A stretch of 64,000 nucleotides of DNA from Alteromonadaceae bacterium M269 (GTDB lineage Bacteria; Pseudomonadota; Gammaproteobacteria; Enterobacterales; Alteromonadaceae), in assembly GCA_004353515.1 (NCBI GenBank), contig SMNZ01000006.1:1-64000 (forward strand), given 5' to 3'. This document shows positions 1 through 61,897 of this stretch, one piece after another; within the stretch, counting starts at the first letter, position 1; every line of letters begins with the position of its first letter. Made by a program: the position numbers and the translations under genes. The notes beneath the pieces were generated by a model, which was not told the DNA's origin, did no database searches, and saw only the letters and a list, made by a program, of their open reading frames with translations.

Positions 1-80
1 TTCCGAACTCAGCAGTGAAACGTATTAGCGGCGATGGTAGTGTAGGGTTTCCCTATGCGAGAGTAGCACACCGCCAGGCT
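1..80 (+). rRNA. rrf: 5S ribosomal RNA, 3' part (cut by window edge)
   Basis: The first 80 bases read like the second half of a bacterial 5S rRNA: the conserved CCGAACTC near the start, GTGAAAC, GGCGATGGTAGTGTAGGG and the closing GAGAGTAGCACACCGCCAGGC helix strand. The 5' part lies outside the window, so this is the last gene of an rRNA operon read from the left. The 3' end is placed just before the terminator hairpin and could shift by one or two bases. No tRNA follows it. Confidence 0.93.
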
Positions 81-3058: not shown

Positions 3059-3220
3059 TGGAAGCTACAAAGGTACTCCTATCACCTTAAACTTAGCAGA
3101 TACTCCCAAATCTTTAGCACTCAGTCCCAAACTTATTGTCGCCTCTTGTTAAAGACAATGACTTGTTTAACTTGCTATGACGGCAGATTGCCTGTCTGAG
3201 CAAACGAGAGGAATTAACAC

Positions 3221-3811
3221 ATGAAAAAACTTATTTTGGGTGCAGCTCTAGGATTAACTGCATTAACATCAACAGTACTTGCCCATGATGCATTTTCATC
3301 TTATATAAACTCTAAGGGTGAAATGGTGCTTCCTGAAAATTATCAAACAGAAATGTCACACATGGGAAGCTTCTTAGTTCCAAGTGGCGGAGCTGCGGGG
3401 TTTCACCATGTCTACACTCAGCCTGAGACAATTGAGGCGTTTAAAGCAACTGGTGAGTTCCCAGACGGTGCTGTCATTATAAAAGAAATTAGAGGTACTG
3501 AGAAAGCTGACTATACGACAGGTGCCGGTGTAAGTTCAGCAACTGGAATAGCACAAGTCTTCATGATGATTAAAGATACCAAAGGCCGTTTCAAAGGCAA
3601 CAAGCTTTGGGGTGAAGGCTGGGCTTGGAGTTTACACAAGCCAGGAAGTAATAAGAATGTGGCGACAGACTACAAGGTTGATTGCCTGGGTTGTCACGAG
3701 CCGGTTCGTAGCCAAGACTTTATCTACACCCAAGCTTACCCAATATTAGAAGCTGGAGGTTCAAGTAAAACATCTAATGCACCTGCGGGGTCTATGTCTT
3801 CAGGTAACTAA
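3221..3811 (+). CDS. Cytochrome P460 family protein
   Basis: A 196-residue exported haem protein. A signal peptide (MKKLILGAAL to about residue 21, cut near VLAHD) precedes the P460 fold. The single c-type haem site CLGCH is at residues 155-159, late in the chain as in the family. Known P460 proteins use a Lys-crosslinked haem to oxidise hydroxylamine or bind NO; many homologues in non-nitrifiers have no assigned role. The tail after residue 178 is low-complexity Ser/Gly. AGAGGAATT 5-13 bp ahead of the ATG is a good ribosome site. It is followed by a terminator and faces the sulfite dehydrogenase genes convergently, so it is a neighbour rather than an operon member. Confidence 0.88.
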   Translation: MKKLILGAALGLTALTSTVLAHDAFSSYINSKGEMVLPENYQTEMSHMGSFLVPSGGAAGFHHVYTQPETIEAFKATGEFPDGAVIIKEIRGTEKADYTTGAGVSSATGIAQVFMMIKDTKGRFKGNKLWGEGWAWSLHKPGSNKNVATDYKVDCLGCHEPVRSQDFIYTQAYPILEAGGSSKTSNAPAGSMSSGN

Positions 3812-3820
3812 TGTTTAGTC

Positions 3821-3863
3821 ATATGTGGGCCATTTCCTGTCAAATGTCGGCTCACATATTTTT
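3821..3863 (+). terminator. Terminator after the cytochrome P460 gene
   Basis: ATATGTGGGCC (3821-3831) pairs with GGCTCACATAT (3849-3859) with one G-T wobble, followed by a T run. It sits 10 bases behind the P460 stop codon. Confidence 0.7.
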
Positions 3864-3866
3864 CAA

Positions 3867-4196
3867 TTATTGAGGCAGTAGATGATTAGGTATCGGTCGT
3901 CGTCTGTTTTGTTTAGTAGCTGGATAGCTTTGGGCTAGGTAATTCAAAATTGTGTCTTCCGTTTTCGGGTCAAATTGCCATAATTTCTGTGTTTCCTGCA
4001 TCCACCGGATTGTTGTAAGCCACTCTTCTCTGTTACCACGATTTGATGTCACTAGGTTTAATGAATGACAGGCGCTGCAATTAGCTTTGATAATTTCCCA
4101 TCCTGGGTTTTTAATAAGTCCGGTACTTGGATCAACGTCTTGAGCACTTGAAGATAAGCTCACCAGAAGAAGAGTTATGGCTAACATTACTCTCAT
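3867..4196 (-). CDS. Small c-type cytochrome, probable sulfite dehydrogenase electron acceptor subunit
   Basis: A 109-residue exported monohaem cytochrome c. The signal peptide (MRVMLAITLLLVSLSSSAQ) is followed by the haem motif CSACH at residues 40-44; M66 is a candidate axial ligand. The start at 4196 leaves only 2 bp after the stop of the upstream sulfite dehydrogenase gene; an earlier in-frame start would overlap that gene and lacks a signal-like N-terminus. SorB-type cytochromes of this size take electrons from periplasmic SorA sulfite dehydrogenases, and gene order and coupling here fit that role. The pairing is inferred from context, not from a diagnostic motif. Confidence 0.83.
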   Translation of the reverse strand: MRVMLAITLLLVSLSSSAQDVDPSTGLIKNPGWEIIKANCSACHSLNLVTSNRGNREEWLTTIRWMQETQKLWQFDPKTEDTILNYLAQSYPATKQNRRRPIPNHLLPQ

Positions 4197-4198
4197 AG

Positions 4199-5518
4199 TT
4201 AGACTACCTTCACTGCAATACGATGACATGCATTATTCAAGTAACCTTTGGGATTCCATCCAGGTAGAACCATTGGCTGAGATTTACCTTGTTCATCCAC
4301 AGCTCGAGCCCAAATTTCATAATATCCTGTTTCTGGTAACTCGATAGTTGAATTCCAATGTTGCCAAGCCAATCGGTTTTTGGGTTTTTCTAACGTAGCT
4401 TTTGACCATGTTGCACCAAAATCAATAGACACAAAAACTTCTTTGACCTGAAGATCACCTGCCCATGCGTGACCTCGAACACTGAGTTTTTTGGTTTGTT
4501 CGTGGATGACTCCAGATTTTGGATAAGTGATAAGTGACTTAACAGGCATTGATTCAATAATACACATGTCTTCATCAGCGACAGCTTGTCCTGGCTTTAC
4601 GGGCTTGCAGGGAACTCGATAAGCCGTGCCGGTCATTTTTGCACCATCATGTACTTTGTTTCTAATAACTAGCTTCTTAAGCCATTTGCCGGACGCTGAG
4701 GCTGGCCAACCACTGCATATCAATCTCAAAGGATAGCCATGTAGCTGTGGTATGTCTTCGCCGTTCATTGCCCAGGCAATTAGTGTCTCGTCTTCGTTGG
4801 CTTTATGCATGGGTACGCCACGGGATATAGGATTTTTGCTTGGGTCACCGCTTAAGTGCTTATCTGCGCTGTAGTAGCCGATATAAACCGCATCGTCTTT
4901 GACGCCACAGTGCTTAAGCACATCTCTTAATCGCACTCCTGTCCATTCTGGGCAACCGACAGCCCCTGTTGTCCACTGATTGCCTTTAGCGGGTGGGTTG
5001 TACTCGCTTCTACCGTTACCGCCACACTCAAGTTGCAGTTGATAAGTATAATGCTTGAACTTCGATTTCAGCTCTTCGATCGAAAAGCTTTGTGGACGTT
5101 CACAGGATTCACCACCGATTTCTAATTGCCAATTGGAGGTATCTTTAACCTCGGGAGGAATGCCATTGTTACGCACAAATAAACGGCTTGCGGGCGTTAT
5201 TTTGTCATCTAATAAGTGAGCGGGCGTTTCCGCATTAATAGGATGGTCGTTAAGTATGGTGAGGCCATCTTTGCCTTCCAACTTAAACGGCTGGGTGCTA
5301 TCGGCAAAAGCGGCGGGTATTAAGCCAGCAGGCATAAATCGCGCAAAAGGAATGCTGGCCCCAATGGCTGCAGAAAGAGCCGATAAACCACTGTTTCGTA
5401 GAAAGCCCCTTCTAGTCAATGTATCAGTTTTCCTACCCCATAACTTTAAATCTGCATTGTCTGGATCACTACCATATAACTCATGAATGCCTATGGATTT
5501 TTGCTCTTTCTGTGACAT
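4199..5518 (-). CDS. Tat-exported molybdopterin sulfite dehydrogenase (SorA/sulfite oxidase family)
   Basis: A 439-residue molybdenum enzyme predicted to oxidise sulfite to sulfate in the periplasm. Residues 36-72 form a Tat signal (TRRGFLRNSG, hydrophobic core, cut near PAAFA). The oxidoreductase molybdopterin domain follows, with the Mo-ligating cysteine at C165 in LQLECGGNGR, and the C-terminal Mo-co dimerisation domain carries VRGHAWAG and VSIDFGATW. There is no haem domain in the chain, so an external cytochrome is needed; the next gene supplies one 2 bp downstream. The YeiH-type exporter gene lies 31 bp upstream in the same direction. Sulfite as substrate is well supported by family and context; other sulfoxide-like substrates are possible. 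Confidence 0.88.
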   Translation of the reverse strand: MSQKEQKSIGIHELYGSDPDNADLKLWGRKTDTLTRRGFLRNSGLSALSAAIGASIPFARFMPAGLIPAAFADSTQPFKLEGKDGLTILNDHPINAETPAHLLDDKITPASRLFVRNNGIPPEVKDTSNWQLEIGGESCERPQSFSIEELKSKFKHYTYQLQLECGGNGRSEYNPPAKGNQWTTGAVGCPEWTGVRLRDVLKHCGVKDDAVYIGYYSADKHLSGDPSKNPISRGVPMHKANEDETLIAWAMNGEDIPQLHGYPLRLICSGWPASASGKWLKKLVIRNKVHDGAKMTGTAYRVPCKPVKPGQAVADEDMCIIESMPVKSLITYPKSGVIHEQTKKLSVRGHAWAGDLQVKEVFVSIDFGATWSKATLEKPKNRLAWQHWNSTIELPETGYYEIWARAVDEQGKSQPMVLPGWNPKGYLNNACHRIAVKVV

Positions 5519-7200: not shown

Positions 7201-8487
7201 TTACTTTTGTTCTCTGGCAATAGCGCGATAAGCAATATCATCACGATAGAACATGCCCTGCCAGCTAATTTGGTTAACCAAATCATAAGCACTCGTTTGC
7301 GCATCGGAGACAGTTTCACCTAAAGCGGTTGCGCAAAGTACTCGCCCACCGCTAGTCGTAATCTCGTCATCGACCAACTTGGTTCCAGCATGAAAGACTT
7401 TTTGAGAGCTAGAATTATCGTTTTGCAAACCAGATATCACTAGGCCTTTGTCATAACTGCCAGGGTAGCCTCCTGCAGCTAGAACGACGCCAACGGCAGC
7501 TTGTGAGTCAAACTCGATATTGGCTTTATCGAGTTGCCCTGCGATTGCCTCTAAGCAGAGTTGTGTGAGATCAGACTTCAGTCTCATCATAATGGGCTGT
7601 GTTTCTGGATCGCCGAAGCGACAGTTGTACTCAATGACTTTGGGGGTACCGTCAGCCATAATCATTAGACCGGCATACAAGAAGCCTTTGTAAGGCATCT
7701 CTTCACTTGCCATACCTTGCACAGTTGGGTGAATGACTTCTTCCATAATCCTTTGGTGGATTTCAGGAGTAACAACAGGAGCTGGTGAGTATGCACCCAT
7801 GCCACCCGTGTTAGGTCCTGTATCACCATTACCAACACGTTTATGATCTTGGCTAGTTGCGAAAGCTAATACATTTTTACCGTCAACCATAACGATAAAA
7901 CTAGCTTCTTCGCCATCTAAAAACTCTTCGATAACAACTCTGCTTCCTGCATCACCAAAGCGATTGTCCGCAAGCATATCTTTAATTGCAGCTTCGGCTT
8001 CTTCCAGTGTCATTGCAACAATAACACCTTTACCGGCAGCTAAACCGTCAGCTTTAACAACGATAGGTGCGCCTTTCGTACGAACGTAGTTAATAGCTGG
8101 CTCAATCTCAGTAAAGTTTTGGTACTCTGCAGTAGGGATGTTGTGACGAGCTAAAAAGTCTTTGGTAAAGGCTTTTGAACCTTCCAACTGAGATGCGGCT
8201 TGGCTCGGACCAAAAATCTTTAACCCATTCGTTTCGAAAAGATCAACTACGCCATTAACGAGAGGAGCTTCAGGTCCAACTATGGTTAAGTCAATGCTTT
8301 GCTCAAGTGCAAAAGCAAGTAGGGCGTTGTTATCTTCTGCAGAAATATCAACATTCTCTAATTTACTTTCCGTGGCTGTCCCTGCATTACCTGGCGCCAC
8401 ATAGACAGTGTTTACGTTGGAAGATTGAGCGACTTTCCATGCCAAGGCGTGTTCGCGGCCACCGCCGCCGATTATAAGTACTTTCAT
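7201..8487 (-). CDS. purD: Phosphoribosylamine-glycine ligase (GAR synthetase)
   Basis: A 428-residue ATP-grasp enzyme joining phosphoribosylamine and glycine in step two of purine synthesis. It starts MKVLIIGGGGREHALAW, carries the ATP-grasp core (VVKADGLAAGKGV) and the GDTGPNTGGMGAYSPAPV signature, and ends at normal length. The ATG at 8487 is the canonical start; an in-frame start at 8532 would overlap the preceding gene. It lies 31 bp behind an exported methyltransferase-like gene, which itself is 26 bp behind purH, so the three are probably one transcript. Confidence 0.97.
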   Translation of the reverse strand: MKVLIIGGGGREHALAWKVAQSSNVNTVYVAPGNAGTATESKLENVDISAEDNNALLAFALEQSIDLTIVGPEAPLVNGVVDLFETNGLKIFGPSQAASQLEGSKAFTKDFLARHNIPTAEYQNFTEIEPAINYVRTKGAPIVVKADGLAAGKGVIVAMTLEEAEAAIKDMLADNRFGDAGSRVVIEEFLDGEEASFIVMVDGKNVLAFATSQDHKRVGNGDTGPNTGGMGAYSPAPVVTPEIHQRIMEEVIHPTVQGMASEEMPYKGFLYAGLMIMADGTPKVIEYNCRFGDPETQPIMMRLKSDLTQLCLEAIAGQLDKANIEFDSQAAVGVVLAAGGYPGSYDKGLVISGLQNDNSSSQKVFHAGTKLVDDEITTSGGRVLCATALGETVSDAQTSAYDLVNQISWQGMFYRDDIAYRAIAREQK

Positions 8488-8518
8488 TGATTCAGCTGCT
8501 TTAGGGTTGTTGATTATT

Positions 8519-9334
8519 TTATCGCTTAACAAACTTAAGTGTCATGCGGTCGCTTTCACCGATTGCTTGATACTTAGCTTTGTCCTTATCACCCAATCTG
8601 TAACGTGGTGCTAGTGTCCAAACACCGCTGGGGTGATCTGCTGTATCGTTAGCATTGGCATTAAGCTCACTGGTTGCAACTAACTCAAAACCAGCACGTT
8701 GCGCCATGTCGATAACATAAGATTGCTTAACATAGCCCGAATTTTTCTTTTCACGCATGTCAAAGTTTTCAGGCATACGGTGCTCTATAACACCTAATAC
8801 GCCGCCTTGCTTAAGTGCTTTATGAAAAACAGCAAAAGCATTAGCAACACCTTGGTCGTCACCGCGCATGTACCAGTTATGGACATTTCTAAAGGTGAGT
8901 ACTGCATCCAAAGAACCTTCTGGTGCAACCTCCACGCTGGTATCGTTTTGATTAAAAGACGTCATCTCGACTTTGCTGTAAGGAGCATAGTTTTTGACTT
9001 TATCTTCGAAACCTTTGCGTGAGTTACGGAAGAAGTTACCGGAGTTTTCATCAACATAAAAATGAGCTGCGTAGAGCTTGCCTTCATCGGCAACAAGAGG
9101 AGCTAAGATATTGGTATACCAGCCGCCGCCTGGCCATATTTCGGCAATCTTCATATCAGGCTCAATCCCTAAGAAGCGTAATGTCTGGATAGGGTGTCTG
9201 AATTCATCTCTTAGACGCTCTTGCCCTGTACGGTTCTCGTTACCGACCGCGTCGGCAATCGGATCGGCTGCAACAATAGCTGATGACGTTGTGATGGCTA
9301 AAGTGAAAAATAAACGACTTAGTGTTTTTCTCAT
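8519..9334 (-). CDS. Class I methyltransferase-fold protein with signal peptide, inserted between purH and purD
   Basis: A 271-residue protein with an N-terminal signal (MRKTLSRLFFTLAITTSSAIVAADP) and a Rossmann methyltransferase fold. Motif I is IAEIWPGGGWYTNILAP, followed by LDAVLTFRNVHNWY (motif IV position) and GGVLGVIEHRM. A paralogue with the same motifs occurs at 51935-52696. Proteins of this type are annotated as SAM-dependent methyltransferases, but SAM is not expected in the periplasm, so either the leader is an anchor, the cofactor is different, or the protein has lost catalysis. Spacing to purH (26 bp) and purD (31 bp) suggests cotranscription. Substrate unknown. Confidence 0.85.
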   Translation of the reverse strand: MRKTLSRLFFTLAITTSSAIVAADPIADAVGNENRTGQERLRDEFRHPIQTLRFLGIEPDMKIAEIWPGGGWYTNILAPLVADEGKLYAAHFYVDENSGNFFRNSRKGFEDKVKNYAPYSKVEMTSFNQNDTSVEVAPEGSLDAVLTFRNVHNWYMRGDDQGVANAFAVFHKALKQGGVLGVIEHRMPENFDMREKKNSGYVKQSYVIDMAQRAGFELVATSELNANANDTADHPSGVWTLAPRYRLGDKDKAKYQAIGESDRMTLKFVKR

Positions 9335-9360: not shown

Positions 9361-10947
9361 TTAATGTCTAAAGTGGCGCATACCAGTGAATACCATAGCG
9401 ATACCATGCTCGTTAGCTGCGTCGATAACTTCTTGATCGCGCATCGAGCCACCAGGTTGAATGACGGCTTTTATCCCGGCAGCTGCGGCTGCATCGATGC
9501 CGTCCCTAAACGGGAAGAAAGCGTCAGATGCCATCACTGAACCAGCGACTTCCAAATTTTCATCGGCAGCTTTGATTCCTGCAATTTTAGCTGAATAAAC
9601 ACGGCTCATTTGTCCGGCACCTATGCCGACGGTCGTCTTGTCTTTCGCATAAACAATCGCGTTGGATTTAACATATTTAGCGACTTTCCAACAGAACAGT
9701 AAATCGTCAAGTTGTTGCTGTGTTGGCTGGACTTTACTGACGACTTTAAGGTCGTCTTTTTCAACCATACCGAAATCTCTATCTTGTACTAGTAGCCCGC
9801 CGTTAACTCTTTTGATATCAAACTCATCAGTTAACTGACCTTGCCATTCGCCACAAACTAACAATCTGACGTTAGCTTTTGCTGAAAGTACTTGTTTCGC
9901 GCCGTCTGAAGCTTTGGGGGCAATAATAACCTCGACAAACTGACGATCGATAATCGCTTGAGCTGTTGCTTCATCCAATGTGCCGTTAAAAGCAATAATG
10001 CCGCCAAAGGCAGATGTTGGATCGGTTTTGTAGGCTTTGTCATAAGCCTCAAGCAATGTCTCGCCTGTTGAAACTCCGCAGGGATTTGCATGTTTAACGA
10101 TAACGCAAGCCGGTTGAGTAAACTCCTTAACACATTCTAAAGCAGCGTCTGTGTCTGCAATATTGTTGTACGAGAGTGCCTTACCTTGAATTTGAGTTGC
10201 TGTTGAAACAGAAGCTTCTTGGATATTCTGTTCAACGTAAAAAGCCGCTGCCTGATGGCTGTTTTCGCCGTAGCGAAGATCTTGCTTTTTAACGAATTGA
10301 TTGTTGAAAGTGCGAGGGAACTGGCTTGCTTCTTCGGAATCTGAAGATTGATTTACCATAGTACCGAAGTGATTAGCAATCATACCGTCATATTGTGCAG
10401 TGTGTTCAAACGCAGCAATAGCGAGATCGAAACGTGTTGCTTGAGTGAGTGAGTCATTATTGTTGTTCATCTCCTCAAGTACACGATTGTAATCACTAGC
10501 GTTAACAACAATAGCGACATCTTTATTGTTTTTAGCCGCCGCTCTAACCATTGTAGGACCACCAATATCGATGTTTTCAATTGCATCTTCAACGGTGCAT
10601 TCAGGGTTAGCAACCGTCTGTGCAAAGGGATACAAGTTAACAACGACAAGATCGATAGGCGCAATGTCTTGTTCTTGCATGATGTCTGCATCGACATCTC
10701 TACGCCCTAGAATGCCACCATGAATTTTGGGATGCAGGGTTTTAACACGCCCTCCCATGATTTCAATTTGGCCTGTATGTTCAGATACATCAGTCACATC
10801 AATACCTTCTTTACGCAGCAGTGCAGCGGTACCGCCTGTGCTGAGTACTTGAATGTTCTTTTGACTGAGAGCTCTTGCGAAATCAACTATACCGGTCTTG
10901 TCAGACACACTGAGTAATGCGCGACGGATGGGTCTTGGCGTATCCAT
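9361..10947 (-). CDS. purH: Bifunctional AICAR transformylase / IMP cyclohydrolase
   Basis: A 528-residue cytoplasmic enzyme for the last two steps of IMP synthesis. The N-terminal cyclohydrolase (MGS-like) domain has [17 protein letters not shown] and [10 protein letters not shown]; the transformylase part has [28 protein letters not shown] and the C-terminal [19 protein letters not shown] and ending MRHFRH, all canonical. ATG at 10947 has GAGG 12 bp ahead; a GTG at 10968 would add seven residues. It is the promoter-proximal gene of the purH/methyltransferase/purD unit. I see no PurR-type operator upstream. Confidence 0.97.
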
Positions 10948-11100
10948 TAACGTGGATCCTCGTATCACTTATCTGTTAGCGCTAGGCGCATCATTGTTAA
11001 GAAATGCCCTTTGTGGGCGTTGGGAGCGCATTATATTGTATACCTATGCTATCTCAAGACGCTAGTTTCAGAGCTATCATTGGTATCAATGCTACAAAGA

Positions 11101-11126
11101 AAAAGAGCACCCATTGGTGCTCTTTT
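11101..11126 (-). terminator. Terminator after fis
   Basis: AAAAGAGCACC (11101-11111), loop CATT, GGTGCTCTTTT (11116-11126). Read on the minus strand the stem is followed by TTTTTCTTT. It lies 16 bases past the fis stop. Confidence 0.85.
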
Positions 11127-11141
11127 AATCTTAATTTGCTT

Positions 11142-11435
11142 TTAGTTCATGCCGTATGTTTTTAGCTTCTTGCGAAGAGTGCCTCGGTTAACACCCATCA
11201 TGATGGCAGCGCGTGTTTGGTTGCCTCGAGTGTAAGTCATGACTTCTTCTAGAAGTGGTGCTTCGACTTCTGCAAGTACGAGGTCATAAAGGTTCTCGAT
11301 ATCGTTATTATCTAGTTGCTTTAGATATTTGTTTACGGCTTGTTTCACTGAGTCACGTAGTGGTTTTTGCGCTTGTGTCTGCGCTGGCGTTGTTACTGTA
11401 GTGGTAAACGGTGAAGTTACATTTTGATCGAACAT
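11142..11435 (-). CDS. fis: DNA-binding protein Fis
   Basis: A 97-residue nucleoid-associated and activator protein. The C-terminal helix-turn-helix [20 protein letters not shown] and the ending KTYGMN are virtually identical to enterobacterial Fis, as is [11 protein letters not shown] in the dimer core. Start at the ATG of MFDQN (11435), as in the family; a TTG six bases upstream is unlikely. It follows dusB by 48 bp, the conserved dusB-fis operon of Gammaproteobacteria, in which fis is controlled from the promoter ahead of dusB. Confidence 0.97.
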
Positions 11436-11483
11436 ATACAACCTGCTCTGTAATTAAAAACCAATTGGCGTCTATATTTCCTG

Positions 11484-12461
11484 TTAGAGATGTTCAGCTG
11501 CCAATACATTAAAATAGCTATCCAATGTGTCGAGCTGCTCTTGAGCATCCTCGATAGCATTAAACTGCTTACGAAATTGACGGTTAGGATCATGATCACT
11601 TAAATACCAACCCACGTGTTTACGGGCGATCCTAGGTCCTAAAAATTCACCATAAAACTGGTGAACATTACGGATATGGCGCAATAAAATGTCGCGCTTT
11701 TCCGCTATTGTTGGTGAACTTAAAAGCTCACCTGTTCGCAAATAATGGTTAATCTCGCGAAATATCCAAGGGCGACCTTGAGCTCCGCGACCAATCATAA
11801 TTCCATCTGCGCCTGTGTAATCCAAAACGTGCTGCGCTTGTTGCACCGTTTCTATATCGCCATTAGCGACCACAGGTATTGATACTGCTTTCTTTATTGC
11901 TCGAATAGTGTCGTATTCAGCTTCACCTCTAAACATGCATGCCTTGGTGCGACCATGAACAGCTAGAGATTGAATACCGCTATCTTCCGCAATTAACGCT
12001 ATTTCAACGCCATTTCTATTTTCGGGCTGCCAACCGGTACGAATCTTTAACGTAACCGGTACATCAACGGCTTTAACTACTGCCTGTAATATATCCTTAA
12101 CCAAGTCCGGATATTGTAGTAGAGCGGATCCTGCCGCTTTTTTATTCACTTTTTTTGCAGGACAACCCATATTAATGTCAATAATTTGCGCGCCATTATC
12201 CACATTAAGTTGTGCTGCTAAAGCCATTTGCTCTGGATCGGAACCCGCAATCTGTACAGATCGAATGCCAGACTCGCCTGTATGATCCATGCGTAGCTTG
12301 GATTTCTGAGTGTTCCATACATCCGGATTACTAGACAACATTTCAGAGACAACAAGTCCAGCTCCCAGCTCTTTGCAAAGCTGGCGAAATGGCCTATCAG
12401 TGACGCCTGCCATCGGCGCTAAAATGACGTTATTTTCAAGCAGGTAAGGTCCAATTTGCAT
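11484..12461 (-). CDS. dusB: tRNA-dihydrouridine synthase B
   Basis: A 325-residue FMN enzyme that reduces uridine to dihydrouridine in tRNA. It begins [26 protein letters not shown], has the catalytic cysteine in [13 protein letters not shown] and the FMN-binding [11 protein letters not shown] segment. Length and the position directly before fis identify it as the B class. It is the first gene of the operon, with a 149-bp gap to prmA upstream that probably holds the promoter. Confidence 0.96.
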
Positions 12462-46078: not shown

Positions 46079-47335
46079 ATGCGGAATTTGATAAACAAAA
46101 AACTTGGGCTTTTCATTGTCTTGATTTTCGGAATTGCTGTTCAAAGCGGTAGTATTATTGCGGACGAAAGTAAAACGACATTAAAAGTATCAATGCTTAT
46201 TTTTAGTGTTGAGCAGCGCAATGTTTTTGAAGAGATCGCTATCGCGTTCAATAAGCGATACCCCAATGTCGATATTCAATACATTTCTCACACCGATGCC
46301 AACTACAAGAAAAATTCAGCGCTTTGGTTAGAGAACCCGGAAGGAATAGATGTTATCAACTGGCTTTGGTCACGCCGGATAGGTGAGTATGTCGATGTTG
46401 GTTGGATTGAGCCTATTTCCGATCTTTGGTCTTCTGCTTATATGGAGTCTAACTACAGCCAGGAGATGAAGCAGTTAGTCACTTTCTCTGGCGAACAGTA
46501 TGCTATGCCGTATTCGGTCGGTGTTTGGGGTTTCTATTATCGAGAGTCATTGTTCGAGCATTTAAAACTTGAAGTACCTTCTGATTGGCAACAGCTCCTC
46601 GAAGTCTGTGAGACGCTCAAGGAAAAACAAGTCACGCCTATTATCATTGGAGCTGAGCAACCGTGGCCAACAGCTGCTTGGTTCGACTTGTTGAATTTGA
46701 GGATTAACGGTTTGGGGTTTCATCGCCAAGTAGTCAGTGGCTCAGTGCCGTTTACGTCCCCAAAGATACGTAACGTTTTTTCTCACTGGAAAGCATTGAT
46801 GACTCAAGGGTGCTTCAATCGCCATGCGACTAAGGTTGGCTTTAAGGAAGTGACGCCGCTCATCTTTAGAAATAATGCAGGAATGATATTAGCAGGCAGC
46901 TTTCTGGTTACTCAAGTTCCAACGCAAATCAGAGATGACTTCAAGTTTTTCTCCTTCCCCGTTATTAATACCTCAGTAGAAATCTCGGAAGAAGCACCTA
47001 TTGATATGTTTCTCATTCCTCAGAGTAGTAAAAACAAAGTTATTGCAAAGCAGTTTATTAAGTTTATCTCTGAAGCTGAAAGCCAAGCATTGATCAACAA
47101 TACCATTCATTTTATGCCTGCTAATAGCTCATCTTTGATAGGAGAAAGTTACTTCAGTCAGGTAGGAAAAGAAGCACTAGAAGCTGCGAAAGGACGGTCA
47201 CAATATTTGGATAGAGACGCCCCCTTTGATTTTGCTAAAAAGTCTCTACGGGTTTTTGCTCGATTTTTGGAAGATGGTGATATCGAAAGAGCTCAAAGTG
47301 AGCTCGAATCGTTACGCCTGATACACTTTAAATGA
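46079..47335 (+). CDS. Orphan extracellular solute-binding protein (family 1, sugar type)
   Basis: A 418-residue exported binding protein (signal cut near IIADES). The SBP_bac_1 fold is clear: LKVSMLIFSVEQRNVFEEIAIAFNKRYPNVDIQYI, QYAMPYSVGVWGFYYRESLF, NNAGMILAGSFLV. Such proteins deliver oligosaccharides to ABC importers or sense them. No permease or ATPase lies beside it. Its stop is 3 bp from the stop of the convergent FKBP gene. Confidence 0.86.
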   Translation: MRNLINKKLGLFIVLIFGIAVQSGSIIADESKTTLKVSMLIFSVEQRNVFEEIAIAFNKRYPNVDIQYISHTDANYKKNSALWLENPEGIDVINWLWSRRIGEYVDVGWIEPISDLWSSAYMESNYSQEMKQLVTFSGEQYAMPYSVGVWGFYYRESLFEHLKLEVPSDWQQLLEVCETLKEKQVTPIIIGAEQPWPTAAWFDLLNLRINGLGFHRQVVSGSVPFTSPKIRNVFSHWKALMTQGCFNRHATKVGFKEVTPLIFRNNAGMILAGSFLVTQVPTQIRDDFKFFSFPVINTSVEISEEAPIDMFLIPQSSKNKVIAKQFIKFISEAESQALINNTIHFMPANSSSLIGESYFSQVGKEALEAAKGRSQYLDRDAPFDFAKKSLRVFARFLEDGDIERAQSELESLRLIHFK

Positions 47336-51934: not shown

Positions 51935-52696
51935 TTATTCAGGTTTGCGGAACTTGAATGTCCAGCGGTCAGTGTTGCCTGTAACTGTTTTAACACCAAC
52001 TTCATAACGTAGCTCGTCATCTTGGCGGCGGTGTAGGTCAGAGTAATCAACGAACTCGAAACCTGCTTCTAGGATTTCTTTAATCGCTAAAACCGGATCT
52101 ACACGACGACGGTTGTCGCGAGTTAGAGGTTCCATGTGACGCTTAGTGTGATCAACAACCGCATAGATACCGCCAGGCTTAAGCGCATCAAATGCAACTT
52201 TATTCATCGCTTTACGGCCAGCTTCACTGAAGTTGTGGTAGTTACGGAAAGTGAAAACGATATCGACATCTTTAACGCCTAGGCTGTCGATTTTCATGTC
52301 TGTTAATAACGCGCCTTCTTCACGAGAAAACTCAGCATCTTCAGCAATAATGCTAACTTTGTCGAAACCAGGCTTACCTTCAAGCGTTGTTCTTAATCTG
52401 CCTGCACCGATACCTGCGTAGTATTCGCCTTTATCTCTTAAAACAGGCGCTAAAATTTTTGAGTACCAGCCGCCACCAGGAACAAGCTCTACAACACGCA
52501 TATCGTCGCGTAAACCAAAGAATTCTAGAGTTTGTAGTGGGCGTCTATTTCTGTCGCGGTCAGTTTCTGCTTCAGTACGGATATCAGATGCCATTGCCGC
52601 TTTAATTTTATCGGCGGTTGCATCAAAGTCGCTTTGTGCAAATACTGATGCACTAGCGGTGAGTGCCATCAGTAATGCAGGGATGAGTTTTTTCAT
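51935..52696 (-). CDS. Class I methyltransferase-fold protein with signal peptide (second copy)
   Basis: A 253-residue protein with signal peptide (MKKLIPALLMALTASASVFAQ) and a methyltransferase fold. Motif I is VVELVPGGGWYSKILAPVL, and VDIVFTFRNYHNF and LKPGGIYAVVDH align with the copy at 8519-9334, sharing PGGGWY and TFRN.HN. It lies 19 bp behind the amidohydrolase gene, so the two are probably cotranscribed. Substrate and cofactor use outside the cytoplasm are unresolved. Confidence 0.86.
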   Translation of the reverse strand: MKKLIPALLMALTASASVFAQSDFDATADKIKAAMASDIRTEAETDRDRNRRPLQTLEFFGLRDDMRVVELVPGGGWYSKILAPVLRDKGEYYAGIGAGRLRTTLEGKPGFDKVSIIAEDAEFSREEGALLTDMKIDSLGVKDVDIVFTFRNYHNFSEAGRKAMNKVAFDALKPGGIYAVVDHTKRHMEPLTRDNRRRVDPVLAIKEILEAGFEFVDYSDLHRRQDDELRYEVGVKTVTGNTDRWTFKFRKPE

Positions 52697-55585: not shown

Positions 55586-55851
55586 GGGGCTCCCAAACGA
55601 GTTAGTCTATTAACGGAAACGCTGAATGGTAACGTTAACGAATTAGGGGGTTAATTGCATCTGCTAATTTAAAGTGATTGTAACGGGATGATAATCTAGT
55701 TAAAAATTGTCACATAAACGGGCTTTGTGCATTGATCTCCTAATACTGTTAATATCGATTAAATGAGAATATTCAAGGTCTAGCCTACACTGTATTTACG
55801 GTGAGCCCAGAACAACGCACTTGAGTATAAAACAACATTGAGCGGGTGATT

Positions 55852-57063
55852 ATGAATTTTGTGTTATACGCCATACCTTTTTTCTTCTTGCTGATTGGCT
55901 TGGAGTTGCTGCTAGAAAAGTGGCGTAAAACTGAGTTCTATCGTGTCAATGATGCGATTAACAGCTTAAGTGCTGGTGTATTAAGCCAAATGACCGGTCT
56001 CGCTAAGAATTTATTACCGTTCACAGTCTACATATTCGTTTATGAAAATATGGCGTTGTTCTCTTGGGAGAAATCAACCGCCTTCTGGATTTTTGCCTTT
56101 CTATTCTACGATTTCCTTTATTACTGGAAACATCGCATGGGACATGAAATGAGCCTGCTATGGGCTGCTCATGTTGTGCATCATTCCAGTGAAGAATACA
56201 ATCTGACAACAGCGCTACGTCAAACGAGCGGTAATATTGTTGGCTGGATTTTCTATGTACCTATGGCGCTGATCGGCGTAGAGCCTTATGTATTAATTAG
56301 TGTTGGATCATTGAACCTTGTGTATCAATTCTGGGTACATACCCGCCATGTACCTAAGCTAGGTTGGTTTGAGTGGTTCTTTGTTAGCCCTTCTAACCAC
56401 AGAGTGCACCACGCGCAAAACCAGATATATCTAGATCGTAACTACGGTGGTGTTTTTATACTCTGGGACCGTCTGTTTGGAACTTTTCAGGAAGAACTCG
56501 AAGAAGAGAAGCCTATTTATGGTGTGCGCAAAGCGTTGCGCAGTTGGAACCCATTGTGGGCAAACGTGCAGGTTTATACACAACTCGTTAAAGACAGCGT
56601 AAGAACAAAGCGTTGGAGTGATAAATTCAGGGTTTGGTTTGGACGTACGGGCTGGCGTCCAGAAGATATGGAACGAGATTTCCCGTTAGCCCGGGTAGAT
56701 CTGGCTCGTTTTCAAAAATACGATGTGCCACTAACAACGTCGTCTAAGTGGTATGCCGTTTTGCAATATGGCCTTATGACCTTCGTAGGCCTTATGTTGT
56801 TATTGAATGTCCAAATGCTGGACATTAAAGAGCAACTTTCTCTTATTATTTTTGTTGGTTTTTGTAGTTACTCTCTGGGAGCTTTTTTGGAAGGAAAAGC
56901 TTTCGCAGTTGGCTTGGAAGTCATAAAAAATGTGATAGTACTCGCTGTTTGTTGGCTGGTAAGTATCAATATGGCGGTGATGACTACCCTAGTCGTCCTC
57001 GCTTTGCTAAGTTTGGCTGTATTGTGCTTGACCTTTTTGCCGCAAAGACGACTTGCCTCTTGA
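55852..57063 (+). CDS. Sterol desaturase / fatty-acid hydroxylase family membrane protein
   Basis: A 403-residue polytopic membrane di-iron protein. The histidine clusters KHRMGHE, HVVHHSSEE and SNHRVHHAQN are those of the family. Four to five helices before and after fit. Known members hydroxylate or desaturate sterols, fatty acids and alkylglycerols; in bacteria the substrate is often unknown. ATG at 55852; a GTG six bases earlier is in frame. It precedes the YnjB-like gene by 100 bp. Confidence 0.92.
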   Translation: MNFVLYAIPFFFLLIGLELLLEKWRKTEFYRVNDAINSLSAGVLSQMTGLAKNLLPFTVYIFVYENMALFSWEKSTAFWIFAFLFYDFLYYWKHRMGHEMSLLWAAHVVHHSSEEYNLTTALRQTSGNIVGWIFYVPMALIGVEPYVLISVGSLNLVYQFWVHTRHVPKLGWFEWFFVSPSNHRVHHAQNQIYLDRNYGGVFILWDRLFGTFQEELEEEKPIYGVRKALRSWNPLWANVQVYTQLVKDSVRTKRWSDKFRVWFGRTGWRPEDMERDFPLARVDLARFQKYDVPLTTSSKWYAVLQYGLMTFVGLMLLLNVQMLDIKEQLSLIIFVGFCSYSLGAFLEGKAFAVGLEVIKNVIVLAVCWLVSINMAVMTTLVVLALLSLAVLCLTFLPQRRLAS

Positions 57064-57163: not shown

Positions 57164-58405
57164 ATGTGTGTAAAGCCCCGCTCATTTTACACATGGATTT
57201 TTCTGGTTGTTTTTGGTTTATCGGGGCTTGTTGCTTGCACGCCTCCTTCAAAGAATGAAACGCCGCTTAATTTATCCGAAATCACTTGGCCTCAGATAGA
57301 AGAAAGAGCTCGTGGGCAAACCGTATATTGGAATGCCTGGGGTGGAGACCAAAGGATTAATGCTTATATTCGATGGGTAGGAGCCGAGGTAAAGGAAAAA
57401 TACGATCTTACTTTGGTTCATGTGAAGCTTAATGACACATCTGAAGCTGTTGCGCGCATATTGGCCGAAAAGGCTGCTGGCAGAACGGATGATGGGACAG
57501 TTGATTTAATATGGATTAACGGCGAGAACTTCTCAGATTTAAAAGCGAATAATATGCTGTTTGGACCTGTATCAGGCGTGCTTCCCAATTATCAGTGGGT
57601 CGATCAGGAACAGCCTGCATTTATTGAAGATTTTACTATCGCTGTTGATGGGTTGCAGGTTCCTTGGGGATTATCAATTCTGGTTTGGTTGTATGACAGT
57701 CAATCTGTTACTAAGCCACCTCAAAGTCCAGATGAGCTGCTGTTATGGGCATCTGAAAACCCTGGACGTTTTACTTATCCTGCGCCGCCAGATTTTGTTG
57801 GAACTAGCTTTTTGAAGCAGCTTCTTATTGCATTCACAGAACAAGATAGCCTTTTAACTTTACCTGTTTCTGAGACTTCTAAGCATCTAGCAGATCCCGT
57901 CTTTGAATTTCTCGACCAGTTAAAGCCTTTGTTATGGCGGGAAGGCCGAACATTACCGACCAACAGCTTGGCATTAAAACAGCTGCTAGCGGATGGCGAA
58001 GTTGATTTTAGTTTGAGCTTTAATCCGGCTGATGGCATCAGCGGTGTTTTATCTGGGCAGTTAGCCGAATCAGTGAAGACCTACACCATGAAAACCGGTG
58101 CTTTGAGTAATGGACATTTTGTTGCGATTCCACAAAATGCTAGTGCAAAAGAAGGAGCTATGGTTATTGCTAACTTCCTACTTTCGCCTGCAGCTCAAGC
58201 AAAAAAAGCTGATATTGAGGTTTGGGGAGATATGAGTGCCTTGGATATCGATAATTTGGAGCCTGAAGCTCAGGCGTTATTTGAGAAGCTACAACAAGAA
58301 AAGCGTCTTATTCTTCCAAATCAGTTTGAACGTTCGTTGGCAGAACCACACCCGAGTTGGACCAAGTACTTAGAGCGAGTTTGGTTGGAGCGATATGCTC
58401 AATGA
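57164..58405 (+). CDS. ynjB: YnjB-type ABC transporter solute-binding lipoprotein
   Basis: A 413-residue exported binding protein with lipobox LVAC (about residue 25 from the ATG at 57164; a TTG at 57143 would add seven residues). Sequence segments TVYWNAWGGDQRINAYIRWV, DLIWINGENFSDLKANNMLFGP and QVPWGLSILVWLYDS match the YnjB family, whose substrate in E. coli is unknown. Its stop overlaps the permease start (ATGA). Confidence 0.91.
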   Translation: MCVKPRSFYTWIFLVVFGLSGLVACTPPSKNETPLNLSEITWPQIEERARGQTVYWNAWGGDQRINAYIRWVGAEVKEKYDLTLVHVKLNDTSEAVARILAEKAAGRTDDGTVDLIWINGENFSDLKANNMLFGPVSGVLPNYQWVDQEQPAFIEDFTIAVDGLQVPWGLSILVWLYDSQSVTKPPQSPDELLLWASENPGRFTYPAPPDFVGTSFLKQLLIAFTEQDSLLTLPVSETSKHLADPVFEFLDQLKPLLWREGRTLPTNSLALKQLLADGEVDFSLSFNPADGISGVLSGQLAESVKTYTMKTGALSNGHFVAIPQNASAKEGAMVIANFLLSPAAQAKKADIEVWGDMSALDIDNLEPEAQALFEKLQQEKRLILPNQFERSLAEPHPSWTKYLERVWLERYAQ

Positions 58406-60102
58406 ATAAAACAGCGACACAGCTGATTTTTATTAGTGTATTTGTTTTGCCCATGTTAGCTGCGGCAGGTGGAATGCTAATTCCTGCGTTTGGAATAATT
58501 ACCTTAGGTCAATGGCAAGCACCGAGCCTGTCAGCTTGGATTAATCTCACAGATACTCCTGGATTAGGCCAGTCATCGCTGCTGTCTATAAGTAGTGGTT
58601 TGGTTGCTACGATTATTTCAGTGGTTTTATCTCAAGCTTTTGTTGCTAGGCGTTATTCCAAAGGCAGTAGCAAAGGTTTTGATAGCTTGAGTCGATTTTT
58701 GTTAGCCGCTCCTCATGTTTCTGTAGCTGTGGCGACGGCTTTCTTGCTTGCGCCTTCGGGATGGTTAGTTCGTCTACTGTCTCCATGGATGACAGGGTGG
58801 GAAAGGCCGGCAGATTACTTATTACCAAATGACCCTTGGGCAGGAGCACTGATCTTAGGCATTGTTATGAAAGAGTTGCCTTTTATGCTGGTTGTGAGTG
58901 TTGCGGCAATTAATCAAATAAAACCTAAACCACTTTTAGATACCTGCCAGAGCTTAGGTTATAGCTTCGCACAGAGTTGGCTTTTCATCATTGTTCCCGG
59001 AATATACAAACGTATTCGCTTACCTATTTTTATTGTGCTGGCCTTCTCTGTGGGAGCTGTTGAGCAAGCGTTAGTCTTAGGACCAACACAACCTCCAACT
59101 TTTAGTATCAAATTAATGCAGTGGTTTTCAGACGCCAACTTATCAAGCCAAGGAACTTTGGCTGCTGGAAGTCTCTCGCTGATTCTTCTGACGTTTTTGT
59201 CATTTATCGTGTGGCGTTTATTAGAAATTGTCATAACTTGGCTTTATAAAATGAGGGTAAGCAGAGGTCAGAGGCAGCTCTTTTGGGCTCCGGTACTTTG
59301 GTCAATATCTTATATCGCTGGCTTGTTGATAATTATCGCGGTAGTAAGCGTGGCAATGTTGTCTGTTCTGTCCTTTACACAGGGGTGGCGTTTTCCTACT
59401 TTTCTTCCAGAACATTGGTCTTTCGCCGTTTGGGATAGCAATATTGTGTTGCTTTTACCCGCACTATCTCAAACCTTGTTGTTAGGTGTTACAGCGGCAA
59501 TATTATCGGTCAGCTTGGCCTTAGTTTGCCTGGAAATGGGACAATCTGATCGCTTCTTTGAGGTGTATGGGAAATGGTGGTTGTTTATCCCTCTTTTTAC
59601 ACCACAAGTTTCCTTGTTGTTTGGATTGAGTTTAGGTTGGACACTCATGCGTATGGATGGCATGTGGTTAACTGTCTTGTGGTCTCATCTTATTTTTTGC
59701 TTACCTTATGCTTGGTTGATGTTGGGGGACAGCTTCAACGCTATTGATTCTCGACTGATCGCATCTGCACGGACTCTAGGCGCTAGCCAGATGAAAACTT
59801 TTTTTGTTATCAAAGTCCCTTTATTAAAGCAACAAATTGCCAATGCATTAGCTTTGTCTTTTCTGGTGTCTGCTTCTTTATACTTACCAACCTTATTTGC
59901 TGGTGGAGGCCGATTTTCGACATTGACTATCGAAACTATGGCACTTGCAGGTAGTGGAGATAGACGTGTGTTAGGCGCGTTAACTCTCGTTCAGCTCATG
60001 TTGCCCTTCATAGCATTACTATTAGCGAAGTGGCTACCTCGTATTCGTTTGAGCCACTTAAGAGCAAATGAATCGGCCGATACCGCGGGAGCAATGAACT
60101 AG
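58402..60102 (+). CDS. ynjC: YnjC-type ABC transporter permease
   Basis: A 566-residue inner-membrane permease with about 12 helices, two BPD_transp-type modules in one chain (first EAA-like loop near SLGYSFAQSWLFIIVPG, second near ARTLGASQMKTFFVIKVPLL). ATG at 58402 overlaps the YnjB stop by 4 bp; the next gene's GTG overlaps its own stop by 1 bp. It would form the membrane channel with YnjD. Confidence 0.92.
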   Translation: MNKTATQLIFISVFVLPMLAAAGGMLIPAFGIITLGQWQAPSLSAWINLTDTPGLGQSSLLSISSGLVATIISVVLSQAFVARRYSKGSSKGFDSLSRFLLAAPHVSVAVATAFLLAPSGWLVRLLSPWMTGWERPADYLLPNDPWAGALILGIVMKELPFMLVVSVAAINQIKPKPLLDTCQSLGYSFAQSWLFIIVPGIYKRIRLPIFIVLAFSVGAVEQALVLGPTQPPTFSIKLMQWFSDANLSSQGTLAAGSLSLILLTFLSFIVWRLLEIVITWLYKMRVSRGQRQLFWAPVLWSISYIAGLLIIIAVVSVAMLSVLSFTQGWRFPTFLPEHWSFAVWDSNIVLLLPALSQTLLLGVTAAILSVSLALVCLEMGQSDRFFEVYGKWWLFIPLFTPQVSLLFGLSLGWTLMRMDGMWLTVLWSHLIFCLPYAWLMLGDSFNAIDSRLIASARTLGASQMKTFFVIKVPLLKQQIANALALSFLVSASLYLPTLFAGGGRFSTLTIETMALAGSGDRRVLGALTLVQLMLPFIALLLAKWLPRIRLSHLRANESADTAGAMN

Positions 60103-60806
60103 TGTCAATGAAGTTGGAGCAAATATCCTTGTCAGTGGGTTCACAAACGCTTATCGAAAATGTTGAGTTGTTTATAGAGGCGGGGAAAGTAACCTCATTG
60201 ATGGGAGCGAGTGGCAGCGGTAAATCAACACTACTCTCTTATATTAGTGGAACATTGAATCATAAAATAGCTGGCTCAGGCCGTATTTTGGTCAATGGTC
60301 AAGAAGTGCAAGATTTGCCTGCGGAGCGGCGCAAGATAGGCTTATTATTTCAAGATGCATTACTCTTTCCTCATTTAAATGTTGGGGAAAATTTGGGTTT
60401 TGGATTATCTAGCGCTGTTGAAAAACCACATAGACGAAAGAAGATTCAGGAAGCCCTTGAGCGAGCACAACTCACAGGGATTTATGACAAGAATCCTGTA
60501 ACGCTATCTGGTGGAGAAAGAAGTCGCGTGGCTTTGATGAGAACGCTATTGGCTGAGCCTGATGCTTTGCTCCTAGATGAACCATTTTCGAGACTCGATG
60601 AACAAATAAAGCAAAGCTTTCGTGAATTCGTATTTGAAACTGCGATGGAGAAAAATATCCCAGTGCTAATGGTGACGCATGATATCCAAGATACACAAGT
60701 TGCTCAATCAATGAGCGGCGGTCCTGTTTTTATGCTTGAACAGCAGCAAATTAAACCTCTAGGAAATGATGATATGACTCAGACAAATACTCGAAGGGTG
60801 CAATAA
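60102..60806 (+). CDS. ynjD: YnjD-type ABC transporter ATP-binding protein
   Basis: A 234-residue ATPase with Walker A GASGSGKST, Q-loop LLFQDALLFPHL, signature LSGGERSR, Walker B ALLLDEP and the H-loop VTHD. The GTG at 60102 overlaps the permease stop; an ATG six bases on is an alternative. The radical SAM gene begins 2 bp after its stop. Confidence 0.94.
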   Translation: MSMKLEQISLSVGSQTLIENVELFIEAGKVTSLMGASGSGKSTLLSYISGTLNHKIAGSGRILVNGQEVQDLPAERRKIGLLFQDALLFPHLNVGENLGFGLSSAVEKPHRRKKIQEALERAQLTGIYDKNPVTLSGGERSRVALMRTLLAEPDALLLDEPFSRLDEQIKQSFREFVFETAMEKNIPVLMVTHDIQDTQVAQSMSGGPVFMLEQQQIKPLGNDDMTQTNTRRVQ

Positions 60807-60808
60807 CG

Positions 60809-61897
60809 ATGGAGAGCATGTATTGGGTTATCAGTTGGGCATGCCATCGCCGTTGTGAGCACTGTTACGATGATCGTTTCAGGCCCTATAAAAAAGATGA
60901 GTTAAAACAAATTGTGGGTGAAGGGCAGCAAGCCTATAAAAAGATTGTCGAGAATTTGCCTGATGACTTTAGCTACCTTGACCCCAATATGCTGGATGAA
61001 AATGGTCAGCCAACTAAGCGGCGAGGTCGTATAGTGATTGCAGGGGGTGAAGTCCTAATTGATAGTGTTCGAGAGCCGCTGTTCTACCCTATTTTAGATG
61101 CATTAAACGATAAATATGGAAAAAATGGCCCGAGGTTAGCGGTACAAACGACAGGTGACATACTGACGGAAAAGTTTCTGGAAGAGATGCTCGAGAGGAA
61201 CGTTTGGTCGATCGCGATATCCAGTATTGATGATTATCACAAAGGGCTCGAAGGCGATAAAAAGTTTCGTTTGATGGATAAAGTCCGCAATATGATGGCG
61301 AAATACGGTGTCGAAGAAACCAGTCTCGGTGGTGCTCAAGATCCAAGGATTCAATCTCCGGAAGAGCGAGATTATTTAGATGAAGATGGCCCTTTCTTTG
61401 TGTTTTTCGGTGCGCAACCAGAACTATGGATTGGTGAGCTTTGGCCAAGAGGTCGTAGCTGGACTAACGGCCTGTCTAAAGCCAATTATGATACGAACTT
61501 CTGCGCGCGATGGGCTGGTGGTAAAAACTTCTTGAATTATGGTTATGCTGGGTCTGAAGTAGCGATTGAACCAGACGGCGCGGTTTACCCCTGCTGTATG
61601 AAAACTAAAGCTGCTTTGGGTTACCTGACTGAAGAGCCACTAACAGATATTCTAGACAGTTTAAAAGGGCATCCTGCGATAGAAGCCATTAATCGTGGTG
61701 ACCCGGAAGGCATGGGGTTAGATAATGGTTGGAGTCGGGAAATCTTTCGTCAGCGCTCGCATTTGATAGACCCTAAAGGGCATGACTATGGAAATATGTG
61801 TTTAGGATGTGATGCCTATTTCGCTAAACATCTGGGTGATAGTCTAAAAGATATCCGTCGACAGCGATTATCCAAGAAAGGAATTCTAATCTCCTAA
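60809..61897 (+). CDS. Radical SAM/SPASM-like enzyme coupled to the YnjBCD importer
   Basis: A 362-residue radical SAM enzyme. The 4Fe-4S motif CHRRCEHC gives C12, C16 and C19; the GGE motif (IAGGEVL) is at 79-81. A C-terminal auxiliary cluster region holds C232, C262, C263, C331 and C334, in a SPASM-like arrangement. It begins 2 bp after ynjD, so it is in the importer operon. Such enzymes modify peptides, sugars or cofactors; nothing here identifies the substrate. Candidates are maturation of the imported ligand or of the transporter; both are guesses. Confidence 0.88.
   Translation: MESMYWVISWACHRRCEHCYDDRFRPYKKDELKQIVGEGQQAYKKIVENLPDDFSYLDPNMLDENGQPTKRRGRIVIAGGEVLIDSVREPLFYPILDALNDKYGKNGPRLAVQTTGDILTEKFLEEMLERNVWSIAISSIDDYHKGLEGDKKFRLMDKVRNMMAKYGVEETSLGGAQDPRIQSPEERDYLDEDGPFFVFFGAQPELWIGELWPRGRSWTNGLSKANYDTNFCARWAGGKNFLNYGYAGSEVAIEPDGAVYPCCMKTKAALGYLTEEPLTDILDSLKGHPAIEAINRGDPEGMGLDNGWSREIFRQRSHLIDPKGHDYGNMCLGCDAYFAKHLGDSLKDIRRQRLSKKGILIS

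Follow-up and report, generated by a model that had tools for sequence, protein, structure and literature searches.

A YnjBCD-type importer and a twitch-like radical SAM protein encoded side by side in an Alteromonadaceae bacterium

The importer YnjBCD of Escherichia coli is encoded in the region ydjXYZ-ynjABCDE (b1750-b1757), of which the inspected 10 kb contain no annotated radical SAM gene, the other genes including ydjX and ydjZ of the DedA family and the sulfurtransferase gene ynjE. PMC3688515 lists ydjXYZ-ynjABCD in a table among the direct targets activated by FNR, PMC9207381 names ynjBCD as an uncharacterised transport system, and the title of a paper cited by PMC3836016 links DedA to selenite resistance. 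The open-licence literature yielded no YnjBCD substrate and no report of ynjB together with a radical SAM enzyme and an ABC transporter. The sequence studied here, called the window—64,000 nucleotides from Alteromonadaceae bacterium M269 (assembly GCA_004353515.1, contig SMNZ01000006.1, positions 1 to 64,000 of the forward strand)—encodes the same binding protein, fused permease and ATPase in the same order, followed by a radical SAM protein (hereafter rSAM).

The coupling of rSAM with ynjB is well supported: in 13 of the 31 genomes found to carry rSAM, the two genes are no more than 2.5 kb apart, which is more than chance would give. YnjBCD and rSAM are read here, with a probability of roughly one in two, as one uptake-and-modify unit for a small polar molecule. 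Loci and genomes compared with the window are designated by L and G numbers, respectively.

The YnjBCD-rSAM locus, its linkage and its history

The four genes lie at the positions and with the spacing—two overlaps and a short gap—described in the initial annotation (Table 1), and from this spacing they are probably translationally coupled. The transporter, too, is confirmed as a genuine YnjBCD: YnjB passes the curated cut-off of NF008633/PRK11622 (498.7 against 203 bits) and matches Pfam SBP_bac_8, and the order B-C-D, with a single fused permease and a short ATPase, is that of E. coli b1754-b1756. The NCBIfam matches of YnjC are all under their cut-offs and its Pfam BPD_transp_1 score is 17.3 bits (cut-off 26.4); it shares 34-38% identity with the permease open reading frames (ORFs) of six rSAM-ynjB loci (L006-L011), while YnjD, scoring 114.3 bits with ABC_tran, is 46-52% identical to the ATPases of the same loci. 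YnjB has a binding-protein fold, with 4r6y as the best structural match (Z 25.6). The annotated start of rSAM is supported by E2 and S3 being invariant, and M1 nearly so, in 11 aligned rows, i.e. the window and ten relatives. Promoter-like sites (15 against 13.2 in shuffles, standard deviation 3.4) and terminator-like sites (9 against 6.1, standard deviation 2.6) give nothing firm. The YnjBCD layout resembles that of a thiamine-type importer; a thiamine role was rejected, the thiamine pyrophosphate (TPP) riboswitch by rSAM in L087 and L088 lying on the minus strand and being that of the divergent thiC. No TPP riboswitch over the gathering score is present in the window, L006-L012, L052, L085, L086, L089 or L090.

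The rSAM family is sparsely distributed. A pattern scan over 84,980 genomes, which relied on exact short peptides of one protein and therefore finds close relatives only, returned 11 relatives, 46-59% identical. By the family profile, rSAM is present in 14 of 289 evenly sampled Alphaproteobacteria (one copy being broken). Of 151 genomes in an acidobacterial class, eight match the profile, one match being weak and uncounted; in a sample of the host's phylum, 21 of 299 genomes pass, full length being reached only by the window's own genome, G1230 and G1208. G1230 was taken as the same genome as G645, based on identical contig number and coordinates. With repeats removed, the 31 pooled genomes comprise the window's own, 11 from the pattern scan, a further 12 from Alphaproteobacteria, six from Acidobacteria and one from the phylum sample. 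No relative was found in plasmids and phages by tblastn at E 1e-5, nor in one scan of viral contigs. The broken alphaproteobacterial copy (L096, G572:C15) occurs in a genome with TIGR04283 and without a YnjB over the cut-off. The order ynjBCD-rSAM is not conserved in Gammaproteobacteria, where the initial annotation proposed to look for it: in the host family, rSAM occurs in one of 147 genomes, which is the window's own, and in the class three of 369 genomes pass E 0.001, two of them by short, uncounted matches near the limit, leaving again only the window's own.

Concerning the linkage itself, ynjB is located within 2.5 kb of rSAM in 13 of the 31 genomes, elsewhere in six, and is absent over the cut-off from 12. 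The linked loci are the window, L006-L012, L015, L085, L089, L090 and L095, the ynjB of L089 being cut by the contig end, hence under the cut-off, and counted as linked. In 11 of these 13, rSAM directly adjoins ynjB, or ynjD in the case of the window; a choline-kinase-like gene (assigned by blastp cluster) sits between the two in L090 and an opposite-strand TIGR04283 gene in L095. The rSAM gene closes the series in the window but opens it in each of the 12 other linked loci; in L012 no ynjCD accompanies the pair. L012 (VHDE01000025.1) comes from a metagenome-assembled genome (MAG) labelled Verrucomicrobia, its rSAM-ynjB pair grouping with alphaproteobacterial ones, by mis-binning or transfer. 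A YnjB encoded elsewhere than rSAM is found in G528, G645, G536, G954, G922 and G894; those of G922 and G894 pass the cut-off only with pieces summed, and the G536 locus departs from a standard YnjBCD in its split permeases and longer ATPase. Among the 289 Alphaproteobacteria, 49 have YnjB over the cut-off (50 with the contig-end case), and both genes occur together in seven, against 2.4 expected (p = 0.004; six by strict count, p = 0.018). The presence of the two genes is moderately associated, and their proximity, when both are present, is striking. It should be stressed that the rSAM gene lies away from ynjBCD in most of the genomes (18 of 31), which limits the claim made initially, and that the linkage, seen 13 times, is not peculiar to the genome in which it was noticed.

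The rSAM tree (22 rows) pairs the window with L005, from a MAG labelled Hyphomonadaceae (support 100/99), and the YnjB tree (46 rows) pairs it with L052 from the same MAG (99/95), where the two genes are on different contigs. Twelve of 14 host-family YnjBs form a 100/100 clade without the window, the remaining two pairing apart; two long branches and many open forks in this tree limit deeper statements. Since many host-family genomes have a YnjB (25 of 98, the window's own included) and that of the window falls outside the family's clade, the most plausible reading of these trees is that the window's YnjBCD was acquired together with, or next to, its rSAM and is not a resident copy. The GC content of the operon (0.43-0.45) equals that of its surroundings, so that the argument for transfer comes from the trees. 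The linked rSAMs do not form one clade, four changes being counted and at least three of them forced by starred branches; together with the difference in gene order, this points to repeated joining or separation. A plain co-transfer on one fragment, leaving the adjacency in the window functionally meaningless, would agree with both proteins siding with one alphaproteobacterial genome and with 146 other host-family genomes lacking rSAM; it is, however, very improbable, because the adjacency recurs in a different order in 12 other genomes and the 2-bp spacing suggests selection for one transcript.

Family and fold of rSAM

The rSAM protein falls into a compact family for which NCBIfam has no named model. 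The best NCBIfam match of the window protein, to the Viperin family NF038283, reaches 21.7 bits, well under the cut-off of 180, and no maturase model comes near its cut-off (YydG: 12.4 against 300 bits). It passes the gathering score of Pfam SPASM (PF13186; 27.4 against 21.5 bits) and fails that of Radical_SAM (PF04055; 22.7 against 29.5 bits), membership in the radical SAM superfamily being supported, despite this shortfall, by the fold match. The cysteines C12, C16 and C19 of the CxxxCxxC motif, as well as C232, C262, C263, C331 and C334, are conserved in all 22 aligned rows. A full SPASM domain contains a seven-cysteine set for two auxiliary clusters. The five conserved cysteines past the first motif fall short of that set and would correspond to one auxiliary cluster and one spare residue, so that the protein is better described as twitch-type than as full SPASM. 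The radical SAM/SPASM label of the initial annotation thus holds as far as the CxxxCxxC motif, the C-terminal cysteines and the Pfam SPASM match are concerned, but the cysteine count suits a single auxiliary cluster.

In the AlphaFold2 model (mean predicted local distance difference test score 80.3, residues 11-23 with the cluster motif and 175-187 being under 50), the predicted fold is closest to EpeE (Z 13.2; root-mean-square deviation 4.1 over 259 aligned residues) and BtrN (Z 13.0; 3.6 over 218), which tie as its best structural matches. Because EpeE acts on a peptide and BtrN on an aminocyclitol, the fold leaves the substrate class of rSAM undecided. The family profile returned only spurious matches, e.g. 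troponin C, among the PDB sequences.

The likeness to EpeE, together with weak generic maturase matches (the DynA model in 10 of 11 members, best E 6e-7), could suggest that rSAM matures a ribosomally synthesised and post-translationally modified peptide, the transporter importing or handling that peptide. This seems rather improbable: the window protein is far under every maturase cut-off, YnjBCD has the architecture of an importer, and 890 small ORFs (20-110 aa, within 2 kb of rSAM at 24 loci) match one another at E 1e-3 only between near-kin loci, with no precursor peptide gene common to distant ones.

Equally far from likely is a maturation of the transporter itself, by a radical modification on YnjB or another subunit resembling the action of anSME on exported proteins. 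The position of rSAM after ynjD in the operon and the presence of anSME among its structural matches (Z 11.3) would fit, and so would a few YnjB columns that differ with the presence of rSAM: R64 is Arg in 14 of 14 YnjBs from rSAM genomes, in 7 of 16 from other Alphaproteobacteria and in none of 14 from the host family, and at column 318 the corresponding counts of S or N are 12 of 14 and, for the other Alphaproteobacteria, 2 of 16, the window itself having His. The respective p-values (0.0009 and 0.0004) are, however, uncorrected across about 400 columns, and R64, the sole column tried on the YnjB tree, is not significant there; 12 of the 31 rSAM genomes, moreover, lack YnjB, and most YnjBs occur without rSAM. 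The R64 difference may at most hint at a distinct ligand use, given that it fails the tree test. Of the two roles offered initially, import-and-modify or maturation, the former remains the better reading and the latter, as maturation of the transporter, is disfavoured.

Companion genes

The TIGR04283 model is passed in 29 of the 31 rSAM genomes against 17 of 49 rSAM-less Alphaproteobacteria, the latter being hand-picked and not random (Fisher p = 7e-8; 19 of 20 and p = 2.5e-6 for Alphaproteobacteria only, both p-values treating genomes as independent). In the rSAM-less background, it is found in 7 of 27 genomes with YnjB and in 10 of 22 without. The two exceptions among the rSAM genomes are the window's own (best E 2.5e-8, under the cut-off) and G664. 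The linked loci L006, L090 and L095 have TIGR04283 and TIGR04282/DUF2064 genes inside them or alongside, as does L139, which lacks rSAM, and the rSAM contig of G907 also has a TIGR04283 gene, at a distance of about 7 kb. The acidobacterial L179 contains an operon of rSAM, a VTT gene, a flavin adenine dinucleotide (FAD) oxidoreductase gene (737.8 against 620 bits) and a TIGR04283-radical-SAM fusion, in a genome without a YnjB match; the fusion joins the glycosyltransferase to a second radical SAM domain (Table 1). No mention of "selenodomain" or TIGR04283 was found in the open-licence literature.

The genome-level association with TIGR04283 exceeds that with YnjB (19 of 31, one being a contig-end fragment in G664), as would be expected if rSAM belonged to a TIGR04283 pathway and its adjacency to ynjBCD were secondary, reflecting a loose gene pool and no common substrate. 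Such an explanation is unlikely, as the window genome has rSAM and YnjBCD with TIGR04283 under the cut-off, and both the 11 direct-neighbour cases and the paired trees speak against it.

In the host family, 14 of the 24 other YnjB loci were looked at, the genes being grouped by blastp clusters and identified from L116 representatives. A VTT-FAD-oxidoreductase fusion precedes ynjBCD and a CDP-alcohol phosphatidyltransferase gene follows in all 14; DUF547 and FA_hydroxylase genes occur in 12 each. The gene preceding ynjB in the window, whose membership in the unit is uncertain, shares a cluster with a gene near ynjBCD-ynjF in 12 of these 14 loci, the L116 representative of that cluster being PF04116 FA_hydroxylase. 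Downstream of rSAM, a DUF6482 gene stands outside the pattern.

Several further neighbours were seen. A choline-kinase/APH-like gene lies directly before ynjB in L139 and L090 (Table 1), preceded by rSAM in L090, rSAM being absent from L139; L180 has a sugar-acid-kinase-like neighbour with SBD_N/NBD_C domains. Genes related to sulphur or selenium comprise a Sulf_transp pair and TauD adjoining rSAM in L091 (L094 being near kin), TauE between ynjB and ynjC in L090, SelR directly upstream of rSAM in L012, and TIGR03169 (N-terminal to SelD) beside ynjBCD in L133 and, by blastp cluster, in L124 and L125. Each of these is confined to one or two lineages, and the theme is a lead rather than a claim, as are a chromate transporter (L092) and YHS and Rieske/ferric-reductase genes (L093) near rSAM. 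Elsewhere in the window, by eye, a second solute-binding-protein-like ORF has no evident permease gene alongside, and two similar secreted methyltransferase-like ORFs lie far apart.

Table 1 Coordinates of the features discussed
Sequence	Feature	Positions	Strand	Length (aa)	Remarks
Window	ynjB	57164-58405	+	413	ATG start; periplasmic binding protein; lipobox-like VAC (by eye)
Window	ynjC	58402-60102	+	566	single-chain fused permease; 4-bp ATGA overlap with ynjB
Window	ynjD	60102-60806	+	234	ATPase; GTG start; 1-bp overlap with ynjC stop; alternative in-frame ATG at 60108
Window	rSAM gene	60809-61897	+	362	ATG start; 2 bp past ynjD stop; twitch/SPASM-like radical SAM enzyme
Window	fatty-acid-hydroxylase-like gene	55846-57063	+		ends 100 bp 5' of ynjB
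Window	5S rRNA	1-79			cut by window start
Window	solute-binding-protein-like ORF	46079-47335			
Window	methyltransferase-like ORF	8519-9334			
Window	methyltransferase-like ORF	51935-52696			
L179	TIGR04283-radical-SAM fusion	9846-11756			operon headed by rSAM
L139	choline-kinase/APH-like gene	3095-4237			
L090	choline-kinase/APH-like gene	7854-8975			

Proposed function and relation to described systems

In the uptake-and-modify unit proposed here, the solute would be small and polar and would probably resemble a sugar or a head group. YnjB would capture it in the periplasm, its ATP-driven import would be the task of YnjC and YnjD, and the cytoplasmic, putatively twitch-type rSAM would abstract a hydrogen from it, leading to dehydrogenation, epimerisation or cleavage. 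In most carriers, the modified solute may then enter a pathway using the TIGR04283 and TIGR04282 transferases and, in some, the VTT membrane protein with the FAD oxidoreductase; in the window genome, with no TIGR04283 over the cut-off, import might, speculatively, replace a synthetic step. That the importer and the enzyme share a substrate is suggested by their coupling. Its small-molecule nature is suggested by the transferase, choline-kinase-like and sugar-acid-kinase-like neighbours, by the lack of a small ORF common to the loci among the 890 compared, and by the YnjB fold being that of sugar, glycerophosphocholine, iron and polyamine binders; the type of reaction is likewise conjectural. 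The initial view that the radical enzyme works with YnjBCD is thus strengthened by a linkage recurring outside Gammaproteobacteria with matching trees, but not by any conservation within that class.

Several observations weigh against this assignment. The 50 top structural matches of YnjB fall within a narrow range (Z 25.6-23.4) and, including hexose-phosphate-type binders besides those just named, point to no single ligand, and EpeE, an equally good fold match of rSAM, acts on a peptide. The 12 rSAM genomes without YnjB and the six with the genes unlinked imply that rSAM can work without YnjB and is not strictly an accessory of YnjBCD; conversely, 43 of the 49 alphaproteobacterial genomes with YnjB over the cut-off have no rSAM. 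The TIGR04283 association leans on the hand-picked background mentioned above. The neighbours, finally, vary widely, no Pfam family matching more than three of 122 neighbour ORFs at 17 loci, and those reaching three being DUF2064, response regulators, histidine-kinase ATPases and TetR.

In a broader and more tentative interpretation, possible although rather doubtful, an exogenous molecule resembling a sugar or a lipid head group would be handled by a modular pathway that has so far gone unrecognised. Its radical step would fall to rSAM and, in some lineages, its dedicated import to YnjBCD, with the TIGR04283/TIGR04282 transferases, VTT protein and FAD oxidoreductase as further modules. If true, this would be the first functional assignment for YnjBCD. 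As YnjBCD occurs in E. coli and many other bacteria, its pairing with rSAM offers a first handle on the role of this importer, and the recurrent partnership of rSAM with YnjBCD and with TIGR04283 makes that role accessible to biochemical testing.

Concerning the enzymes described so far, the TIGR04282/TIGR04283 transferases bear an NCBIfam name referring to arsenosugar biosynthesis, where the radical SAM enzyme is ArsS; their association with rSAM is strong at the genome level and partly local, but the ArsS model is absent among the ten NCBIfam matches of the window rSAM at E up to 0.1. EpeE, a SPASM peptide epimerase of the YydG family, shares the top fold match with BtrN, but is only 15% identical to rSAM, whose score with the YydG model is far under the cut-off and whose loci contain no common precursor-like ORF. 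The twitch dehydrogenases BtrN and SpeY resemble rSAM in predicted fold (Z about 9 for SpeY) and in cysteines suggestive of one auxiliary cluster; in comparison with both, however, rSAM is at most about 20% identical, longer, and linked to an importer.

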